Part shown: positions 3,627 to 20,566 of the stretch, in pieces
Layout: each line of letters starts with the position of its first letter
Position numbering within the stretch: position 1 is the stretch's first letter
Virus record (IMG/VR): IMGVR_UViG_3300009418_002389
Span: 1 to 21,582 of that record
Reading direction: 5' to 3' (one strand)
Length of the DNA stretch: 21,582 nucleotides
Source: a virus
Translations under genes and position numbers: made by a program
Notes under the pieces: generated by a model
The model's input: only the letters and a program-made list of their open reading frames with translations
Database searches by the model: none
What the model was told of the DNA's origin: nothing

Positions 3627-4361
3627 ATGTCATTTCCACAAACGATTATGGGAAAATGGGGATGGGAACAAGTTACCACTACCGCTAAAAAGCATAAGCT
3701 GGGAACTAGGATGCAGATTGCAGACACAGAGTATATCTATGCATCTACTGGAGAGGCGGTTATTGCTGGTCAACTAATGGAGGCTCCTGCTCTCCTAGCT
3801 ACCGATGATGATGACCTCACAGTTGCAACTACCGGCTCCGCAGGCGGTACTACTGTAGGTATCACTTTTGGCGCATCAGTTACTAAAGACGAATATGCTG
3901 ATGGGATTCTTTTCAGCAACGTAGATGCTAGCACTGCCCTTGGGTGGAGATATAGGATCAAGGGACACCCTGCTGGTACGTCTGACGTAACAGTAACTAT
4001 AGACCATGAAGATGGGTTCATTACTGAGATTCTTGCCGGTACTGCTAAAGCTGGTGCATTCAAGAGTTTCTATGAGGGAGTCCTTCAGTCGAATACAACT
4101 CCTGTAGGTCCAGCGATTGGTGTAACCGTTTCTGACATAGCCAGTGGTAGTTACGGATGGCTTCAAGTAAAGGGTCCGGGAGTTTGCTTGATACAAGGTA
4201 CTCCGGCACCGGGTGCAGGATTAATGAGGTCTGATGCCACTGAAGGTGCGATGGAAGACTTTACAGAAGGTAGTGCAACTCTATGGGGTTGCCTTGGTCA
4301 AATGGGAAAGACTACTGCCGTCAATGGTGAATACCACTCAATATTCTTAAATATAGTTTAA
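3627..4361 (+). CDS. Probable capsid decoration / head surface protein
   Basis: I start the gene at ATG 3627, which has AAGGA upstream, rather than at the in-frame TTG three bases earlier. The 244-residue product is rich in Gly, Thr, Ala and Val, with alternating beta-like strands throughout ('GEAVIAGQLMEAPALL', 'TVGITFGASVTKDEY', 'GWLQVKGPGVCLI'). It ends in a hydrophobic strand, 'YHSIFLNIV'. This composition fits small beta-rich head decoration or surface proteins encoded beside the capsid gene. Threonine is mostly coded by ACT here, whereas the capsid gene mainly uses ACA, ACG and ACC, which hints at a separate origin. The gene overlaps the next one by one base (TAATG). The function is inferred from context. 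Confidence 0.6.
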   Translation: MSFPQTIMGKWGWEQVTTTAKKHKLGTRMQIADTEYIYASTGEAVIAGQLMEAPALLATDDDDLTVATTGSAGGTTVGITFGASVTKDEYADGILFSNVDASTALGWRYRIKGHPAGTSDVTVTIDHEDGFITEILAGTAKAGAFKSFYEGVLQSNTTPVGPAIGVTVSDIASGSYGWLQVKGPGVCLIQGTPAPGAGLMRSDATEGAMEDFTEGSATLWGCLGQMGKTTAVNGEYHSIFLNIV

Positions 4362-4729
4362 TGCCCATTGATTTATGGACACCACAGGGGGTCGTTCCGG
4401 TTGGGACGACCCTTGTGGGCGGTAACAAGGAAACAGGATCAGGAATTGTTTCTCACCGCTTTACTTTGAAAGCGAAAGACAAGTTTGGTGTTGAGCATGT
4501 CACTCGTGTCGAAATCCTAGCGGATAAAGATACCTCTAAAGAGCAGATCGAAGACATGATGGCCAACTCAGCCGAGGCTTTCGTGAAGGAAGTACGTGAG
4601 AAATATGACAAGAGGCGCCCAACCGCTGATGAGAAGAAGGAAATCGGGAAGATACTCGAAGACTTTCGGAAGCAGGCGATCAAGCGCAAGGAATCAACGA
4701 ACAATACTTTATACTATCAGGTGAAATAA
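4361..4729 (+). CDS. Hypothetical helical protein
   Basis: This 122-residue protein starts with its ATG overlapping the previous stop codon (TAATG), implying translational coupling to the decoration-like gene. The N-terminal ~55 residues look beta-rich ('GVVPVGTTLVGGNKETGSG'). The C-terminal half is a highly charged Lys/Glu helix ('EAFVKEVREKYDKRR', 'IGKILEDFRKQAIKRKE'). A head completion or assembly accessory role fits the position. I do not recognise the family. Confidence 0.55.
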   Translation: MPIDLWTPQGVVPVGTTLVGGNKETGSGIVSHRFTLKAKDKFGVEHVTRVEILADKDTSKEQIEDMMANSAEAFVKEVREKYDKRRPTADEKKEIGKILEDFRKQAIKRKESTNNTLYYQVK

Positions 4730-4730
4730 T

Positions 4731-4907
4731 ATGACTTCAGGAAATGGAATTGATGTTCAGGTCCAGCCGCAGGATGTGCAGGAAGTGCTGAAGAACAACG
4801 CACTTTTTGCCGTACAGGTTGAGAATGCAGCGATGCGACGCACGATAGAAGAACTGATTGCTCGTGTTCACGAGCTGGAGAATGGGGCAAGCGACAAGGA
4901 GGAATGA
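4731..4907 (+). CDS. Small coiled-coil protein (58 residues)
   Basis: An ATG directly follows the stop of the upstream gene, with no clear ribosome binding site of its own, so it is probably translated by coupling. The product has a Gln/Val-rich start ('GIDVQVQPQDVQEVL') and then one amphipathic helix ('ENAAMRRTIEELIARVHELEN'). It ends in an acidic tail. Short helical proteins like this often occur between head and tail genes of podovirus-type operons. The next gene starts two bases after its stop. Function unknown. Confidence 0.6.
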   Translation: MTSGNGIDVQVQPQDVQEVLKNNALFAVQVENAAMRRTIEELIARVHELENGASDKEE

Positions 4908-4908
4908 T

Positions 4909-5016
4909 ATGCCAGCAGTAGGAAAGCGGAAGTTCCCCTATACGAAGTCCGGGAAGAAAAAGGCAAAAGCCTTTGCCAAGAAGACCGGAAAGAAGATGAA
5001 GAAGGCGAAGTACTAG
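4909..5016 (+). CDS. Lys-rich mini-protein (35 residues)
   Basis: The ATG lies two bases after the previous stop and has AGGAGG-like purines (AAGGAGGAATGAT) just upstream. The product begins 'MPAVGKRKFPYTKSGKKK' and is about 45 percent Lys or Arg. Tiny basic proteins with an 'FPYT.KG' pattern recur among structural genes of many podovirus-like phages. A role in binding DNA or packaging is possible but unproven. Its extreme composition and precise fit between neighbouring genes support it being real. Confidence 0.65.
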   Translation: MPAVGKRKFPYTKSGKKKAKAFAKKTGKKMKKAKY

Positions 5017-5025
5017 GAGTGATCC

Positions 5026-6318
5026 ATGCCCGTGATACAAGGCCGGACACGCGAACAGATACGACAGCATGTCGGTTACGCTCTGGGCGCTCTCTATGTA
5101 AGCGCTGCCAGTGAAACTGGAGCAGTAGGGAAAAATACTCTCGTTGACTCAAGCCTGGTTCTCGGAGGGAACGACAACCATATTGGGAAATGGATTCGAT
5201 TTACAAGTGGGTCCAATGATGAAGAAATACGGCGTGTTACAGACTCAACGATTACCGACAATAAAACAACACTTGCGTACATGCCAGCCTCATCGGCGCA
5301 GACAGCTTCAGAATCCTATGAACTATGGGATGTTGCGTACAACCCATCCATCATCGATGATTTCATTAACCAGAGCCTGATCTCGGCAACAGGCAACGCC
5401 TATGATCCCATTGAAAACATTGCGCTCCACGGAGATGGGAAGACCACACGCTTTGATATTCCAAGTGATATCTCCATGATCAACAAGATCGAGTACAGGG
5501 ACAAGATCAGTAGTAAACGGATTCATGCGTGTGCCACTACATTTGACGAAGTGTCTGCCCCAACAGGATTCACCCTGTCGCTTGACACGAAAGATAAAAA
5601 ACAGGGAACCCAATCGTTAAAAATTGCACTTGCTGCCGGGGCAAGCGCGGGTGCATTTATTGCAGATTCTATTACTTCTACCGATATCTCGGCCTACGAC
5701 ACTATTGAGATGTGGATCAAAGTCACAGGGATCGGTAGCGCTCTTGTTGCCGGTAATATCAAATTACACCTTGATGATGGCACGGTTACAGCCGATGGAA
5801 GCGACAAGGAAAGCCTGAACCTCCCAGCTATATCACCGGATACGTGGACTTTCGCCAGAATGTCTTTAGCGAATCCAGAGGTAGACACGGCTATTGTCTC
5901 TGTTGGTCTTGAACATGATGCCGATCTTGGTGCAGGTGTCACGATATGGATTGACGACATTGTCGCGGTTGCCAATGACACGGCTGAATGGGAAACACTC
6001 CCTCGACGGAACTGGCGCATCGATAAAGAGGCGCGGGATCTCATCCTGACCCGTGATGGACAGGATACAATCGGCTACCATCTGATGAAAATCAAGGGTG
6101 GCGACAAGCCAGCCCTGCTTGGGTCTGATGACACAGGCACTGAGGTTAGCGAGAACTTCGTGATCGCCAATACGGTGAACTTGGCGTTGATTTCAACGTC
6201 AGGTGGCCCAGCAACAGACCCTGACGCAAAGCGGCAGCTTTCTGCGTACTGGGCGGCCCAGACAGAAAGAGCGCGAAAGGCATTACCATTCTTGGTGAAT
6301 GCGCGGTCAGTTGAATAA
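5026..6318 (+). CDS. Structural protein (tail/adaptor) with a carbohydrate-binding-like insert
   Basis: AGGAG lies 6 bases before the ATG. The N-terminal ~25 residues are helical ('GRTREQIRQHVGYALGALYVS'), followed by beta-rich sequence. Around residues 165-330 there is a jelly-roll-like section: 'KKQGTQSLKIALAAGA', 'YDTIEMWIKVTG', 'DTWTFARMSLANPE' and 'GVTIWIDDIVAVAND'. This is the pattern of galactose-binding or CBM-like domains. The C-terminal part ('RRNWRIDKEARDLILTRDG' and a final helix 'AAQTERARKALPFLVN') resembles head-tail adaptor or tail-tube proteins. The gene overlaps the next by one base. The exact virion role is inferred from position. The insert may help adsorb the particle to surface glycans. 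Confidence 0.6.
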   Translation: MPVIQGRTREQIRQHVGYALGALYVSAASETGAVGKNTLVDSSLVLGGNDNHIGKWIRFTSGSNDEEIRRVTDSTITDNKTTLAYMPASSAQTASESYELWDVAYNPSIIDDFINQSLISATGNAYDPIENIALHGDGKTTRFDIPSDISMINKIEYRDKISSKRIHACATTFDEVSAPTGFTLSLDTKDKKQGTQSLKIALAAGASAGAFIADSITSTDISAYDTIEMWIKVTGIGSALVAGNIKLHLDDGTVTADGSDKESLNLPAISPDTWTFARMSLANPEVDTAIVSVGLEHDADLGAGVTIWIDDIVAVANDTAEWETLPRRNWRIDKEARDLILTRDGQDTIGYHLMKIKGGDKPALLGSDDTGTEVSENFVIANTVNLALISTSGGPATDPDAKRQLSAYWAAQTERARKALPFLVNARSVE

Positions 6319-8267
6319 TGCCTGCCTCAGTGATTGATAGCAACGAAATATATTTGAATGATACCTATTTCCCGACGACGAAGCCTGTTCGCAGTGTCCT
6401 CGCATCGCTGTACCCGGCAAAGGTCGTCATCGGCGATACGTCAAAGGACGATCAGCTTCGATCCTCGATTGTTGCATGGTCGGACTGGCGTGGAGGGATC
6501 GGCATCAACCGCATGGAGGGTGCGGGTGAGGTATCACGGGCGTGGTATTCCACTGCCCAGCTCCGCTACAAGAACCATCTCGTGTTGCCAGGACTTGCGA
6601 CAGAATCGACAGCCCCATCACATGGATTGACGGATGCAACGATTGGCGCCATCAACACATATGGCGACGAAGTGTACGCTGCATGGAATGGAAGCAACAG
6701 CGAGAACGCAAAGATTTTCAAGTACAACAACACGGGTGATAGCTGGGGCAGTGCGCTGGATGAAACAGAAGATCAGGTCACAGATTCTGTTGTCTTCACG
6801 GATGCTTCAGGAAATTCGCACCTTGTGTTTGCACATTATGACGCCAATGGGAGTGGGTACACGCATTACGACGGATCGTCATGGACATCGAATGATGCAA
6901 AGGATACGCAATTTCTGACTGTCTGGGATGATCGCCTCTGGGGAATTAGCTATACTGGTCAGCTTTGGTACGCGACAACCATTGGAACAGAGGTTAATGA
7001 TGCCGTTCTTCCCTTACCGGACGGGTCAGTGACGGCAATGTTTGTCGCCCGGAATGCAGCAGGCATTCCAAACATCTATGTTGCAACAAAAGAAGGACTC
7101 TTCATGCACAACGCGGATAACGCACGGTTTGAAGAGACGCAAATGGAGTTCCCGATTCATTCAGAGAACGGAAAGGGAACAACCCGATGGAGGGATTCTG
7201 TCTACATTCCGAGCGGTCTAGGGCTTTATAAATATATCAACGGGAGCAACAGTGCGGTGATTACCGTTGTGGGCCCAGATCGCGATGATGGTATGCCTTT
7301 TGACAAGCGCGGTGCGATCCGAATGATGGAGGGATCACACAATGAATTGTTGGCTGGAATTGATGCACGGTTTTCCCCTCTATCAATTGCCAGTACATCA
7401 ATCCCATATCAACAGGGAACGACACAAACTGGGCACTCACCCGTGATTGAATCAGACGCAGGGTACAGCAGTATCGTTGGCTACAACGAGATGGGATGGG
7501 AAACAAAATGGTTGAGCGGAAACCTCGGTAAGGGCCTTGATTCAATGCATGTTTCCAGTTCTTACGACGAGGAATATCGTGTATGGTGGGGGCACAACAA
7601 TTCTGTTTGGTTCATGAATTTGCCTCCAGCGATCATCAATCCTTCTGAGATGGCCGAGTTTGAGTACGCCGAGGAGTGTATTCATGAAACACCGTGGTTC
7701 AATGCAGGCCAGAGCGAAGTTGATAAGCTGGCACTCAAGTTGCGGATCGAAGCGCAGGACCTGACATCCACAGAGAAGGTCAAGGTGGAATATGCCACGG
7801 ACTATGCGGAATCATACACGACGGCTGTTCCTAGCCTCGATGCATCCACGATGGGGGCGGCAAGCGGAACACATGTCTACACGTTTGGGTCTTCCTTGGG
7901 AACAGGGTTCCGTGCCATCAAGTTCAAGCTGACGTTGAATCGAAGCGATGCAACGACAACGGGTCTGGAGAAGTTTGAAAGCCCTGATGTCGTGAGCCTG
8001 ACGTTGGAGTGGCGCAAGAAGATGCCAGCGAAGTGGGGGCATCAGGTGGATGTTGATCTCACACATGACTATAAAGGAAACACGCCGCAAGACCTACGCG
8101 AGAAGCTGGTGTCGGCAATTGAGGAAACGACTCTCGTGGAGTTCACATTCCGTGATGATGGCGGTGGAACACGGAACTATTATGTTGATGTGACCAGTGC
8201 AACTGGTCTGGAATTTACAGGTCATGATGAGCGTGGTTCAACAACAATCACCGTGGCCGAACCCTAG
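6318..8267 (+). CDS. Large tail structural protein, probably beta-propeller
   Basis: This 649-residue protein starts in a TAATG overlap with the upstream gene. Most of it consists of recurring strands of about 40-50 residues: 'GAINTYGDEVYAAWNGS', 'DSVVFTDASGNSHLVFAHY', 'AMFVARNAAGIPNIYVATKEGLFM'. That pattern is typical of beta-propeller blades in phage tail or nozzle proteins. The C-terminal part ('ESPDVVSLTLEWRKKMPAKW', 'TRNYYVDVTSATGLEF') is beta-sandwich-like. It is followed at 9 bases by a small structural gene. A podovirus tail nozzle or tail hub role is the best guess. No enzyme motif was seen. Confidence 0.6.
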   Translation: MPASVIDSNEIYLNDTYFPTTKPVRSVLASLYPAKVVIGDTSKDDQLRSSIVAWSDWRGGIGINRMEGAGEVSRAWYSTAQLRYKNHLVLPGLATESTAPSHGLTDATIGAINTYGDEVYAAWNGSNSENAKIFKYNNTGDSWGSALDETEDQVTDSVVFTDASGNSHLVFAHYDANGSGYTHYDGSSWTSNDAKDTQFLTVWDDRLWGISYTGQLWYATTIGTEVNDAVLPLPDGSVTAMFVARNAAGIPNIYVATKEGLFMHNADNARFEETQMEFPIHSENGKGTTRWRDSVYIPSGLGLYKYINGSNSAVITVVGPDRDDGMPFDKRGAIRMMEGSHNELLAGIDARFSPLSIASTSIPYQQGTTQTGHSPVIESDAGYSSIVGYNEMGWETKWLSGNLGKGLDSMHVSSSYDEEYRVWWGHNNSVWFMNLPPAIINPSEMAEFEYAEECIHETPWFNAGQSEVDKLALKLRIEAQDLTSTEKVKVEYATDYAESYTTAVPSLDASTMGAASGTHVYTFGSSLGTGFRAIKFKLTLNRSDATTTGLEKFESPDVVSLTLEWRKKMPAKWGHQVDVDLTHDYKGNTPQDLREKLVSAIEETTLVEFTFRDDGGGTRNYYVDVTSATGLEFTGHDERGSTTITVAEP

Positions 8268-11532: not shown

Positions 11533-11691
11533 ATGAACTGGATATCAAAGATTCGACCTCAGATCTTTATTGCGATTATTGTGCTGGGTGGGCTCAGCGT
11601 GATCGGCATCATGAATGAAGCCGTTGAGATTGCAGCCGGAGCATCGAGCGGAATTATCGCATTAGGCATGAAAGTGCTGGAATCCGAATGA
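11533..11691 (+). CDS. Small membrane protein (holin-like candidate)
   Basis: An AGGAG site lies 7 bases before ATG 11533. The 52-residue product starts 'MNWISKIRPQ' and continues into one clear membrane segment ('IFIAIIVLGGLSVIGIM'). A second, weaker hydrophobic helix follows, rich in small residues ('EIAAGASSGIIALGM'). Positive residues precede the first segment. Size and topology fit a small phage holin or tail-associated membrane protein. No lysis enzyme lies next to it, so the role is uncertain. Its stop overlaps the next start (ATGA). Confidence 0.6.
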   Translation: MNWISKIRPQIFIAIIVLGGLSVIGIMNEAVEIAAGASSGIIALGMKVLESE

Positions 11692-12785
11692 TATCGCTAC
11701 CATGGCCCAATTTTGGGGCTCTCAGATTAAAATCTGGGAGAGTTATGGGCAAAGCTGGAGTAGGTGTTAGGTCTGAATTGATCTGGCTGGCTGGTTTCCT
11801 ACTCAGCTTCTCGCTGGCGCCCTTCCGCCTGGCTGTGGAGTTCTTCCATGTCCTGATGGGATCTCCGCGGACAACTTATTATGCGCTCCGGGATTCTCGC
11901 GACTGGATATTGGCCAAGGTTGCTTATCTCCAAGACGAAAGCGACCGCTGGCGGAGAACATTTACCCTCCTCAAGTCGCCCTATTCTCTCCTCAGGGCGA
12001 TGGGGTTCTCGCCACAGATGGCCGGGACTTTTCTGTTTGCATCAACCGCCGTTACCTCCACGGTTGTTGTCAATGAAGTCATGGAAGGAAAAAGTTTCAG
12101 CGCTGGGGATTCCGGAGTCTATTCTGCTCCTGCTGATATCCCGACGGAATACTATGATGACGACAATACCCTCCGTGTTGATTTAGGCTCCACACCCGTC
12201 GGTCTGCTACAAATCGAGAACGTCACAATCGGAACCGCTTACGCAAACTCGGCACTCCCATCCGGTGAATCATCAGCGGTTATCGTTGGCGGTTTGCCAG
12301 CTGTCGTTGATCCTGCGTTCACGGAAACATATCTCGAAGTGGGCCATATGACGGTTGACCGGTGGAGATGCACGACCATGACACTTGCGAACATCGAGGC
12401 GCATCACCTGATCGTCAAGCAGAACGCCAGTGATGGGCAGTCGATTGCAGCAGTGGCCGGTACACCTAGGGCCAGGGGAATCGGTGGGGGAAATCGCGCC
12501 GATGCGATGGTCACAAGCGGTGGGTACTACGACCAATTGAAAATCACATCCGCTACCAGCGGAGTCAATGGAAAAGTGGATCGCCTGATCCTGAGTAATT
12601 TATATACCAAGGGTGGCGCCTGTTCGCTGTCGAGAATCAAGGCAGGAACGCTTGAGATCATATTGAATGAAATTGGTGCTGGGGATGGTTTTGCAACAAA
12701 GGATTTTACCATCGCAACCAGTGTAATTTATAAATCGTTTGACAACGAGGATAATGTCGAGGTGAGCATTAGCCCGCCATCGTAG
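11688..12785 (+). CDS. Structural protein with hydrophobic N-terminal third and beta-rich remainder
   Basis: The start ATG overlaps the stop of the small membrane protein gene. In this 365-residue protein, residues ~28-60 include a long hydrophobic stretch ('ELIWLAGFLLSFSLAPFRL'). Residues ~100-130 include another ('MAGTFLFASTAVTSTVVV'). The rest is beta-rich, with Gly/Thr/Ser repeats ('VGLLQIENVTIGTAYANS', 'VDRLILSNLYTKGGACSL'), as in tail or surface proteins. The membrane-like part suggests membrane contact during infection or release. An upstream reading of the first ~20 residues is weak, and ATG 11745 ('MGKAGVGV') could be an alternative start. Function unknown. Confidence 0.5.
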   Translation: MISLPWPNFGALRLKSGRVMGKAGVGVRSELIWLAGFLLSFSLAPFRLAVEFFHVLMGSPRTTYYALRDSRDWILAKVAYLQDESDRWRRTFTLLKSPYSLLRAMGFSPQMAGTFLFASTAVTSTVVVNEVMEGKSFSAGDSGVYSAPADIPTEYYDDDNTLRVDLGSTPVGLLQIENVTIGTAYANSALPSGESSAVIVGGLPAVVDPAFTETYLEVGHMTVDRWRCTTMTLANIEAHHLIVKQNASDGQSIAAVAGTPRARGIGGGNRADAMVTSGGYYDQLKITSATSGVNGKVDRLILSNLYTKGGACSLSRIKAGTLEIILNEIGAGDGFATKDFTIATSVIYKSFDNEDNVEVSISPPS

Positions 12786-16290: not shown

Positions 16291-16570
16291 CGCCTATCGT
16301 GCCGGTATTTCCATCCAAGTACAAGCGTCGAATTTCTGTCCGGGCACGAGGACGAGAAGAATATTCATCTCCTTCATCCTCGCGTAAATCAGCGTGTCGC
16401 TGCATCAGATCGTTCTGACGCCGGAGTTGTTGTGTTTGTTGCTGTATCGCCTCAATCTCCTGCATCTTGTGATCCTCTGCTCGTCTCACGGGGTTCGGGC
16501 ATTGTGTTGCAGCATGGGGGAAGTCAAACCCTGCGTCTGCACACTCGAATGCGTCGTGCCGCAACAGCAC
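16214..16570 (-). CDS. Small coiled-coil protein
   Basis: A GTG start overlaps the RecT stop (TAGTG) and has AGGAG 7 bases upstream. An internal ATG at 16465 with GAGG before it is an alternative. The N-terminal 35 residues show no clear fold. Residues 36-65 are a Gln/Arg-rich coiled coil ('MQEIEAIQQQTQQLRRQND'), and the C-terminal part is polar and Gly/Arg-rich. Its last 47-77 bases overlap the helicase gene in another frame. By position it could be a helicase-loading or annealing cofactor, which is speculative. Confidence 0.5.
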   Translation of the reverse strand: MLLRHDAFECADAGFDFPHAATQCPNPVRRAEDHKMQEIEAIQQQTQQLRRQNDLMQRHADLREDEGDEYSSRPRARTEIRRLYLDGNTGTIGGGNTSRGGINIEPRQHREPSEPDGE

Positions 16571-17640
16571 TATGCATCTCCTGTTGCGGATGCATAGGAC
16601 GCCTGTACCTTGAATTCATTGAATGCTTGGCAGAAAGATCCGTCATCGGTTCGAGCTGGGCATTTATAGAAGGCATCGTATGCTTTCCCTGTTCTTGCTG
16701 ATGTTCCTGCTGGCTGTAAATCCCACTCTTCTCCGTGGTCCGGACATGTTGGCATGTTCACCTTGTTTCCGGATTCTGGATCAGTCCCGATAAACGCAAT
16801 CTTAGGAACCTCTGGCTCTAGTTCAGGCTCCGGTTGATCCTCAGGCAAAGCTGTGGTTTCAGGAGGCTGCTCAAAGATCGGCTCTGTGTTCTGCTCTTCA
16901 GGTGACTCGACCTTGGCGCCACGTTCCTCTGCCGCTTTGACTGTTGGGCTTTTCCGTTTCGCTTTCGGCTTGCTCACGACAATGTCATCGCTTCCCTTAT
17001 CGGGCATCTCATCCTCGGAATAGAGCCCACCAAACTGTGCCGGGAATGCGATCCTTAGGGCTCCCACCTGGGCCACCTTCTCAATCATTCTACCCGGAAA
17101 CTTTATCCATGCCTCGCTCTTCTCTTTGCCCATAATGTAATCCCGGAAGTTTACCTTGTGGACGATGGGAAAATCTCGATCAGACCGATGGACGATTGCC
17201 CATCCACCGACGATATCCTCACCCTTCTTGTAGTACCCACCTTCAATTTCAAATGGGTCACCATCCGGGCCTCGTTCGACGATGACACCTGACTGTATAC
17301 CCCGGAACTTGGGATGTGCATCAGCAACACGGAGATAGAACGACTCCCTGATGACAAATGTTAGGCGACCATTTGCGTCAGTCCAGAAATCAACGTCTCC
17401 TGCCAGTGGGTTCATCGCCTTGGTGAGACACTGGACAATAAACAGTTCCATTTCTTTCAGTGATGGCGCTTTCTTGATGCTTCTATTGTGTTCAGGGGAC
17501 ATCAACTGTTCAATCGCTTCTCGTGTCACCGATGGTGGTGGCTCGAAAGATGTACTGGGTAGATTGTTATTTGATCCCGTGTTTGGGAGAAGGCTCGACT
17601 CTCCATCTTGATACTGTGGCTGTTCTTCAACGGTACTCAT
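16570..17640 (-). CDS. recT: RecT/Bet-family single-strand annealing protein
   Basis: AAGGAG lies 6 bases before the ATG. Residues ~50-215 show the RecT/Bet pattern. 'MELFIVQCLTKAMNPLAGDVDF' leads into 'ADAHPKFRGIQSGVIVERG', 'EDIVGGWAIVHRSDRDFPI', and then 'IEKVAQVGALRIAFPAQFGGLYS'. RecT/Bet anneals complementary single strands for phage recombination and replication. Residues ~220-290 are a Pro/Glu-rich linker. The C-terminal ~60 residues hold a likely zinc-binding element (CPDHG, YKCPA, SFCQ). No paired exonuclease is visible in the window. The partner genes downstream are a helicase and RusA. Confidence 0.85.
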   Translation of the reverse strand: MSTVEEQPQYQDGESSLLPNTGSNNNLPSTSFEPPPSVTREAIEQLMSPEHNRSIKKAPSLKEMELFIVQCLTKAMNPLAGDVDFWTDANGRLTFVIRESFYLRVADAHPKFRGIQSGVIVERGPDGDPFEIEGGYYKKGEDIVGGWAIVHRSDRDFPIVHKVNFRDYIMGKEKSEAWIKFPGRMIEKVAQVGALRIAFPAQFGGLYSEDEMPDKGSDDIVVSKPKAKRKSPTVKAAEERGAKVESPEEQNTEPIFEQPPETTALPEDQPEPELEPEVPKIAFIGTDPESGNKVNMPTCPDHGEEWDLQPAGTSARTGKAYDAFYKCPARTDDGSFCQAFNEFKVQASYASATGDA

Positions 17641-17889: not shown

Positions 17890-18056
17890 GTTTATCACCT
17901 CCCTTCTCTGTAGTAGTATACACCTCCCATATACAAATAGCTATGCCTAGGTGTCACTACGGTTGTGGTAGAATAAGGTCATCGGATGTTGTGGCGTCCG
18001 ATGTACCTCTCTCCAGGCCGTCTCTTCATGCATGTTCTTTATCAGGGACGGCCTTC
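17890..18056 (-). promoter_or_regulatory. Leader between repeat array and HTH gene: hairpin plus possible promoter
   Basis: This 167-bp gap contains a perfect hairpin: CATCGGA (17980-17986) pairs with TCCGATG (17997-18003) over a 10-base loop. Reading on the minus strand, it lies just past the array and could end the array transcript, although the following U-tract is weak. Nearer the gene, TATACT on the minus strand (about 17915) could be a -10 box; no good -35 is seen. A CACCT/AGGTG inverted pair flanks TAGCTA. Confidence 0.35.
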
Positions 18057-19466
18057 GGTATCTCTCTTGTCATCTGTTACCTCTGGATGATTGGATCTCT
18101 CATGTCTGTTGTTACCTCTGAGTTTTTGGATCTCTCTCCTTACTTGTTACCTCGTTCCGCTTGGATCTCTCCCATCTTTTGTTACCTCGTCGCCAGTGGA
18201 TCTCTCTCTGGGTCTGTTACCTCAGACTACCTGGATCTCTCGCTAACTTTGTTACATCGGTTCTTATGGATCTCTCCCATCTTTTGTTACCTCACCGCTT
18301 GTGGATCTCTCATACCTCTTGTTACCTCTTCACTTGTGGATCTCTCGACACATATGTTACCTCTGTACATCTGGATCTCTCCGGGGCTTTGTTACCTCAT
18401 GAACAATGGATCTCTCAAACCTATTGTTACCTCATTCACCTTGGATCTCTCCACTTCTGTGTTACCTCGGTGGTTGTGGATCTCTCACCCAACTTGTTAC
18501 CTCATCAACTGCGGATCTCTCCCCCGAACTGTTACCTCGCGATGCGTGGATCTCTCCAGGGCTTTGTTACCTCTTTTTTCATGGATCTCTCATATCTTCT
18601 GTTACCTCTATCCGATTGGATCTCTCCGCGGCTTTGTTACCTCTGCCGAAATGGATCTCTCCCCAACCTTGTTACCTCAGCAATCGTGGATCTCTCATAT
18701 CTAGTGTTACCTCCCCACCAATGGATCTCTCCCTGACTGTGTTACCTCATTCGCACTGGATCTCTCTGGGGCTTTGTTACCTCATTAACTATGGATCTCT
18801 CCGTAAGCCTGTTACCTCGTCAGAGATGGATCTCTCTCACCGTTTGTTACCTCAAGTCTCATGGATCTCTCTATTCACCTGTTACCTCGTGGCACGTGGA
18901 TCTCTCGTTTCCTTTGTTACCTTAACAGCGATGGATCTCTCTTTCCCATTGTTACCTCTGCAATTTTGGATCTCTCATCGGTCATGTTACCTCTCGGAAA
19001 TTGGATCTCTCATCTGGATTGTTACCTCAAAAGCAATGGATCTCTCGTATGGATTGTTACATCTGCCGGGATGGATCTCTCCCATCTTTTGTTACCTATC
19101 CCACTGTGGATCTCTCGCACCATCTGTTACCTCGCTGTCGTTGGATCTCTCTAGCTCTGTGTTACCTCTTCGCCCGTGGATCTCTCAAATTCCTTGTTAC
19201 CTCATAGATCTTGGATCTCTCTCGGGCTTTGTTACCTCATTAACTATGGATCTCTCCGTAAGCCTGTTACCTCATCTTCGCTGGATCTCTCGCATGCTTT
19301 GTTACCTCTTCTTATCTGGATCTCTCTCTCTTCCTGTTACCTCTTCGCCAGTGGATCTCTCACCTAACATGTTACCTATTCGCCTTTGGATCTCTCATCG
19401 CTCATGTTACCTCTTGAGATATGGATCTCTCTATTACTATGTTACTTCATCAATCGTGGATCTCTC
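18057..19466 (-). repeat. TIGR-like tandem interspaced guide array (40 units of 35 bp)
   Basis: Each 35-bp unit reads, on the plus strand, block A TGGATCTCTC, an 8-base variable spacer, block B TGTTACCTC, and a second 8-base variable spacer. Forty units run without any indel and end with a lone block A at 19457-19466. Block A is exact in all units except the first (8/10, at 18057) and the one at 18512 (C for T). Block B is exact in 34 of 40, with all changes in its last three bases. The spacers are mostly unique. Two conserved pieces alternating with two short variable pieces per unit is the architecture of TIGR arrays, whose transcripts are cut to 36-nt dual-guide RNAs used by Tas proteins. 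The strand is inferred from the tas-like gene 5 bp away. A box-C (RUGAUGA) or box-D (CUGA) consensus is not obvious in the blocks. Alternatives are an iteron or partition-site array. Confidence 0.85.
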
Positions 19467-19471
19467 GGTTG

Positions 19472-20566
19472 TTAAATCATGTCGAGGTTTGGTGGGAGAA
19501 CGTACTTGGTGTGTCCCCCATGCTCGATCACCCACGGTCGGGGTGGCTGCTGTCCCTCGTTGGCGATACGATACCCCACATCCCAGTAGTGGGACAAGAA
19601 CATCTTGACTGCCCACCGTCGTGAACGGCTCGTGATCTCCGCATCCGGCAGTCTCCCCTTCTCATAGGCGGACTTCGCCTTCGTTGCTTTCTTGAATTTT
19701 CCGCTGGCAATCTTCTCACCAGCCAGCTTTTCGTTGCCCCCAGCCTCATTGTTCTCGATCTCCCAGAGCTTTCTCTCTGCATACTTCTGACCGTAGAATG
19801 CTTTGTCATTCCCCGATACCTTGATGAAGCTCTCGCCCATGATCCAGCACAACCTCTTCAGGTTGGCGTTGAAGGGTCTGCGTGATGCTGCCTTGATGAC
19901 ATCATCGCGTGTGATCTCATCACTCACCGTCTTCCTGTTGTTGCGCTCGGCTTCCTCTTCCATGTGGGCTCGCATCAGTTCACGCAGGTTGGATGGTGAC
20001 CTGTTCAGTCGATCCGCAATGAGATCCAGATCGTCGTCGTCCGGGTCACGCTGTGTTCCCAAGACATCCGTTACGATATCTCGTGTCCCGTCCCTGCCGA
20101 GCCACTGCATACTGGGGTCGAGTCCGGCGAAGCGGAAGATCGCACCCGGTGTCCGTGCTTTGTCGAGATCAATGTGTGCCAGTAACCCCGATGCGATGAC
20201 GGGCCCGATACCGGTGTTACTCTTTGCCCACTCACCGATCTTGGATGAGCTACTGTAACTGTCCAAGACCTTGCGGACTTGGTTCTCCAGTTCTCGAAAG
20301 TTATGGGATGACCATTCGAGGATAGACGTTGGCTCATCCAGTGCCTTTGAGCTTCTGATCTGGTTGTCTGCCCGGACACGGTTCGACTGCATGATGTAGT
20401 AATCCTTGACGAGGAGCCGTGCTTCCTTCGGGTGCATGGTTGTGGCAGCCTCGCGAATCTGTGCGTCGAGTGGACGCTGGAAATCTGGTTGGCATGTGGG
20501 ACACTGGAGGTGTCCACCGCAGGTTGTACAAATTGTTGTGACTGCAAATGTATCTTCGCGTTCCAT
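19472..20566 (-). CDS. Tas-like protein: IS110 C-terminal/Nop-like domain, no nuclease domain seen
   Basis: I start at ATG 20566 (364 residues), which has GAGAGAGAGG 5 bases upstream, rather than at the ATG at 20590. Residues 13-25 are a zinc-knuckle-like C-x2-C...C-x2-C. Residues ~30-115 are helical, as in a coiled-coil arm. At 119-155, 'GIGPVIASGLLAHIDL' and 'FRFAGLDPS' match the HhH-like core of the IS110/IS116 C-terminal transposase domain. That domain is structurally related to Nop domains. Later 'NANLKRLCWIMGESFIKV', 'FYGQKYAERK' and 'RSRRWAVKMFLSHYWDVGY' continue the family pattern. The IS110 N-terminal DEDD/RuvC domain is absent and no HNH motif is seen, so it should bind guide RNA and DNA without cutting. 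The array begins 5 bp after its stop codon. A degenerate transposase is the alternative, but the intact frame, the ribosome site and the array argue against it. Confidence 0.75.
   Translation of the reverse strand: MEREDTFAVTTICTTCGGHLQCPTCQPDFQRPLDAQIREAATTMHPKEARLLVKDYYIMQSNRVRADNQIRSSKALDEPTSILEWSSHNFRELENQVRKVLDSYSSSSKIGEWAKSNTGIGPVIASGLLAHIDLDKARTPGAIFRFAGLDPSMQWLGRDGTRDIVTDVLGTQRDPDDDDLDLIADRLNRSPSNLRELMRAHMEEEAERNNRKTVSDEITRDDVIKAASRRPFNANLKRLCWIMGESFIKVSGNDKAFYGQKYAERKLWEIENNEAGGNEKLAGEKIASGKFKKATKAKSAYEKGRLPDAEITSRSRRWAVKMFLSHYWDVGYRIANEGQQPPRPWVIEHGGHTKYVLPPNLDMI

Follow-up and report, generated by a model that had tools for sequence, protein, structure and literature searches.

A TIGR-TasA locus with a 40-unit dual-spacer array in a tailed-phage genome and the replacement of its spacers between near-identical cassettes

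The TIGR-TasA loci, exemplified by FpTIGR of Flavonifractor plautii (PMC12045711), combine a nuclease-free Nop-domain protein with an array of edge, spacer A, loop and spacer B, and are found in phages. In two related proteins of known structure the Nop fold is preceded by a nuclease: TasH (PDB 21kl, 9w04 and others) carries an N-terminal HNH domain, and TasR (PDB 9mty) a RuvC domain, the latter being served by arrays with UG/CCA boxes and spacers of 9 nucleotides (nt). SpTasH comes from Salicola phage CGphi29 (PMC12045711). The IS110/IS621 recombinases share the fold of the RNA-binding domain and differ from the locus described here in having a DEDD domain, a single bridge RNA and transposon ends. 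Here we have analyzed a tas gene and its array in the IMG/VR virus record IMGVR_UViG_3300009418_002389, the 21.6-kb stretch (21,582 nt) called the window below, which encodes an HK97-type capsid protein, and compared them with a near-identical cassette of a second phage, the sister phage (G001, IMGVR_UViG_3300030382_003620, 41 kb). The locus is one more member of the TIGR-TasA family and no new system, although it departs from the described TasA loci in its 35-nt unit, 8-nt spacers, 40 units, zinc-ribbon-like N-terminus and an insertion of ~70 amino acids (aa). What is new is the pair of cassettes in which replacement of the guides has run ahead of divergence of the gene.

The tas gene (Table 1) encodes 364 residues from an ATG at 20566, with GAGAGAGAGG just ahead of the start codon, within a longest open reading frame of 372 aa. 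The NCBIfam model NF052498 (TIGR_Tas_endo) matches the product with 150 bits over a cutoff of 100, as it also matches all 55 aligned relatives, and phmmer recovered the solved TasR (E 6.5e-14), TasH (1.7e-6) and, weakly, IS621. An AlphaFold2 model based on the 55-member alignment (mean predicted local distance difference test score 91.4) was ranked by VIA-align as closest to TasH (Z 19.8, 231 residues aligned, identity ~20%), followed by TasR (Z 17.6, root-mean-square deviation 2.8), with which it shares the C-terminal motif PW[VI][IL]EHGGH, and IS621 (Z 13.5). Both the profile search and the structural comparison, proposed as checks in a first-pass annotation of this DNA, thus favoured the Tas proteins. 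Residues 42-364 of the model align with TasH from about residue 64 and with TasR from residue 112, and neither the HNH domain of TasH (1-63) nor the RuvC domain of TasR (1-111) has a counterpart. No RuvC or HNH nuclease profile matched the Tas protein, whose Nop region begins near residue 42; since the nuclease domains of TasH and TasR are absent, the protein is a TasA. Of the IS110 C-terminal/Nop-like domain described earlier, the Nop-type fold is confirmed, and the IS110 part corresponds to a sub-threshold Pfam hit: an IS110 transposase combines an N-terminal DEDD/RuvC domain with Transposase_20 above threshold, whereas here no N-terminal match was obtained, Transposase_20 of Pfam reached 20.5 bits against a cutoff of 21.3, and the IS110 model NF033542 gave 16 bits against 140, far below the TIGR models.

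The place of the nuclease of TasR and TasH is taken by ~40 poorly modelled residues containing a CxxC-x5-CxxC motif, which among the 81 TasA loci scanned recurs in the same form in the sister phage alone. This zinc-ribbon-like variant widens the known range of TasA. The helical insertion within the Nop region has equivalents of ~50-78 residues at the same site in five relatives (L219-L223).

The array starts 5 bp behind the tas stop codon (19472-19474) on the same strand and comprises 40 consecutive units, each of exactly 35 bp, which extend along the minus strand between 19466 and 18067; its position, period, paired 8-base spacers and placement directly behind the gene had been given accurately by the first-pass annotation, and the period was recovered by Tandem Repeats Finder as well. 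All 40 edge repeats match GAGAGATCC (CCG replaces CCA in one) and are exact over their first nine bases, while the loop GAGGTAACA is exact in 34 of 40 units, the other six having a single-base change that always falls within the first three positions; chance is therefore excluded as an explanation. A TIGR-Tas array is marked by two alternating repeats of 8-12 nt that share a box D start and a box C end and are parted by variable spacers of ~8-9 nt; here the edge has 10 nt and the loop 9 nt (GAG...CCA and GAG...ACA), with 8-nt spacers between them. The same box forms are seen in a related locus, L241 (GATAGAAACA/GAGCGAGCCA), and GAGAGATCCA itself occurs exactly as one of the repeats in three relatives (L263, L268, L286). 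Comparison of the window with Rfam gave no match, so the array was not assigned to any known C/D RNA family of the box C/D small nucleolar ribonucleoprotein type; no other RNA family and no tRNA was found in the window. At its 3' boundary the truncated edge is followed by strong hairpins and a weak U tail. These paired hairpins are a possible terminator or 3' boundary and were not called by a strict terminator scan. Long open frames of 277 and 400 aa cross the array on the plus strand, and antisense proteins were considered and dropped, stop codons being depleted in none of the frames. The spacers of the window and sister (L002, 7107-8368) arrays are skewed in composition (G in 1 of 74 at A8 and in 43% at A6, C in 2 of 76 at B2); in the wider TasA set the skews are mild and concern chiefly positions 1-2.

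A single viral scan (IMG/VR) with a five-member profile returned at least 133 related loci, 80 of which were fetched. In nearly all of these a dual-repeat array adjoins tas, its repeats typically being GAGCGAGCCA and GAGAGAACCA, and the same layout, with repeats of the form GAG....CCA and periods of 33-38, is found in ~70 related phage loci. Sequence family, homology to TasR and TasH, fold, array anatomy and ~80 related phage loci thus all support the TIGR-Tas assignment made from the sequence at first pass. The array is indeed long, the usual size being 5-15 units (PMC12045711), yet it is not exceptional: a candidate record was rejected, as L212 has ~58 units and L258 ~64-70. In L212 the units lie on both sides of the TasA gene, ~31 upstream (3963-5114) and ~27 downstream (5920-6955), and some spacers are present in both arrays. 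The Nop region of another Tas relative, L206 (2956-4044), is interrupted by two cysteine-rich insertions, and a period scan detected no array at this locus. The sole TasA relative in the species-genome collection, L216 of Acidobacteriaceae bacterium KBS 96, has its own 36-bp array; it is possibly a prophage, which would supply a cultured host.

The tas genes of the window and the sister phage are 97.9% identical in nucleotides, with 16 synonymous and 6 nonsynonymous changes over 357 codons and differences at 10 of 159 fourfold sites. Elsewhere the sister phage is remote (capsid 29%, RecT and helicase-like ATPase 32% each, no other gene above 67%), and the similarity, which steps up abruptly near tas codon 10, extends as far as the terminal edge repeat. 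The closest relative of the window in structural genes is another phage, G002 (capsid 67%), whose TasA is 36% identical and whose array has other repeats. A near-identical tas in a remote phage together with a different TasA in a close one points to movement of the cassette, and these alignments are most simply read as phage lineages having exchanged tas together with its array.

The sister array has 36 units built on the same repeats as the 40 of the window, and the two arrays have just one complete unit in common, the CCG edge variant included. Exact matches between them comprise seven A and three B spacers, no A recurring as a B, where simple 8-mer counting would lead us to expect ~0.02 per class; in addition 20 pairs of A spacers are alike at 7 or 8 positions as against 2.4 in column shuffles. 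Shared spacers are out of order, AAAACTCA being unit 39 in the window and unit 4 in the sister. In both phages the A spacer TCGCTGTT occurs with a rare variant of the loop, AAGGTAACA, but the B spacers paired with it are no more alike than expected by chance. Within the window a B-edge-A-loop-B stretch has been duplicated with one base changed (units 19291/19256 and 18836/18801). Other pairs of cassettes behave alike: L264 and L272 (tas 93.6%, flank 83% over 2.5 kb) have 0 of 14 detected spacers in common, L237 and L238 none, and L289 and L292 2 of 10, and cassettes with identical tas genes have all spacers in common. At 6% fourfold divergence drift alone should leave most spacers identical. 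Near-identical tas genes with almost wholly different guides mean, therefore, that guide turnover far outpaces change in the gene, and retention of the repeats alongside changed spacers would be expected if the repeats are bound by protein and the spacers act as guides. These comparisons draw on metagenome assemblies in which repeat arrays may be misjoined, and for some pairs spacer detection is incomplete; whole-array exchange with unseen phages could also explain part of the pattern. It is an even call whether TIGR cassettes travel between unrelated phages while their guides are renewed by half-units, a single spacer being exchanged at each step, through recombination in the 9-10-nt repeats and replacement of individual spacers, at a rate far above that of change in the gene and without a dedicated acquisition protein. 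Such movement and rewriting, if true, would partly explain the origin and maintenance of TIGR arrays, an open question. The two cassettes amount to a natural experiment, with the same repeats, near-identical genes, different backbones and a few single spacers kept beside replaced partners, and with ~80 further phage TasA loci the origin of spacers becomes directly testable by strain comparison.

Targets were sought in the form 5'-spacerB-rc(spacerA)-3' (rc, reverse complement), derived from the published cleavage geometry, in which 8-nt 3' overhangs are left (PMC12045711); the scan used spacerB-(0-2)-rc(spacerA) with the reversed geometry as control. The 76 spacer pairs of the window and sister gave no excess over control in the two phages, and no clear excess in 197 viral contigs (from two target patterns) or in 54 related phage contigs; when the spacer pairs from 71 TasA loci were scanned over 2.45 Mb, counts were likewise never clearly above the control. 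Exact matches in the pattern-selected contigs were discounted because the contigs had been chosen by those very patterns. In these samples the guides are directed neither against their own phage nor against the related phages that were fetched. Coding-sequence targets were also considered, as similar spacer pairs looked codon-like, and were dropped since no frame was depleted in stop codons.

Taken together, the locus is very probably a tailed-phage TIGR-TasA system in which dual-spacer guides direct a nuclease-free Tas protein that binds and blocks. By analogy with published work on TasR, TasH and TasA with respect to transcription, processing and DNA binding, tas and the array would most likely be cotranscribed on the minus strand, and a single cut in each edge of the pre-tigRNA would yield 40 guides of ~35 nt with two 8-nt spacers each; 16 variable nt per guide are also found in SpTIGR, the TasH system. 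A TasA dimer, formed by coiled-coil helices 46-106, may then grip one guide through the ends of edge and loop, box D (GA) paired with box C (CA); a 16-bp target would be opened, its two strands pairing with spacer A and spacer B respectively, and the DNA bent. Because no nuclease domain is present, TasA is expected to bind and block rather than cut; as to purpose and targets, which are conjecture, the blocking would probably be aimed at competing mobile DNA or host sequences. Several observations weigh against this reading: no natural target has emerged from the above scans, the unit measures 35 nt as against the published 36, the box motifs are GA...CA here and UG...CCA in TasR, the U-run behind the array is weak, and a nuclease-free reading may overlook some activity contributed by the zinc-ribbon-like N-terminus.

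The last point leads to an alternative that we consider unlikely, namely that the N-terminal extension, or a recruited phage nuclease, cuts or modifies DNA beyond mere blocking. The extension stands at the nuclease position of TasR and TasH and its motif is preserved in both cassettes, with RecT and RusA genes nearby on the same strand; however, it spans only ~40 residues of low model confidence, matches neither RuvC nor HNH, and its motif is missing from the other scanned TasA proteins, the sister excepted. That the locus has decayed and lost its function, as changes in the first three bases of 6 of 40 loops might suggest, is very improbable in view of the intact reading frame, the nearly invariant edges and the 16 synonymous against 6 nonsynonymous codons relative to the sister. 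Slightly more improbable still is an array of DNA-binding sites, iteron or partition-like, that is no source of RNA: its spacing is regular, its blocks are conserved and ParB-like genes sometimes lie beside TasA loci (PMC12045711), but the alternating repeats have common box ends like those of characterised TIGR arrays, the spacers of near-identical cassettes are almost wholly different and yet, but for two of 9 nt, all 8 nt long, and homologous loci yield processed RNAs (PMC12045711). That the locus is an RNA-guided transposon of the IS110 type, or what remains of one, is hardly credible, since the weak Transposase_20 and IS110 matches and the resemblance to the IS621 fold are far surpassed by the TIGR-Tas models and structures, the N-terminal DEDD domain is lacking and the array is long and multi-guide.

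Table 1 Features of the TIGR-TasA locus and its surroundings in the window
Feature	Coordinates	Strand	Basis or remarks
tas gene (TasA type), 364 aa	19472..20566, stop codon included	minus	NF052498 match, PDB homology, AlphaFold2 fold
CxxC-x5-CxxC motif (CTTCGGHLQCPTC), zinc-ribbon-like, N-terminal	20492..20530	minus	sequence; low model confidence there
Helical insertion, ~70 aa, within Nop region	19880..20098	minus	alignment; helices well modelled
TIGR array, 40 units of 35 nt	18067..19466	minus	edge GAGAGATCCA / spacer A (8) / loop GAGGTAACA / spacer B (8)
3'-truncated terminal (41st) edge GAGAGATA	18059..18066	minus	sister array likewise ends in GAGAGATA
Two stable hairpins directly after array	17970..18054	minus	second then UUAUUCU; fold z -4.18, 0/200 shuffles as stable
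RecT-family annealing protein, downstream neighbour	16570..17640	minus	Pfam RecT 6e-25

The cassette is situated in the early region, flanked by a small conserved open reading frame and by a helix-turn-helix and a RecT gene, with a RepA-like ATPase and RusA after them. A contig 99.8% identical to the window (L300) ends before tas, strain variants sought through the neighbouring RecT gene were not found, and a search of the phages collection returned nothing for Tas and only distant matches for capsid and terminase. Outside the cassette, a stretch of 150 bp by a conserved structural gene (11533-11682) is 88.7% identical to the distant sister phage, the adjoining gene reaching only 64-67%, and is possibly a conserved regulatory or packaging element. 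The gene at 11688-12785, encoding a protein with a hydrophobic N-terminal part, is present in 53 IMG/VR contigs at 45-100% identity and is a good marker for this phage group.
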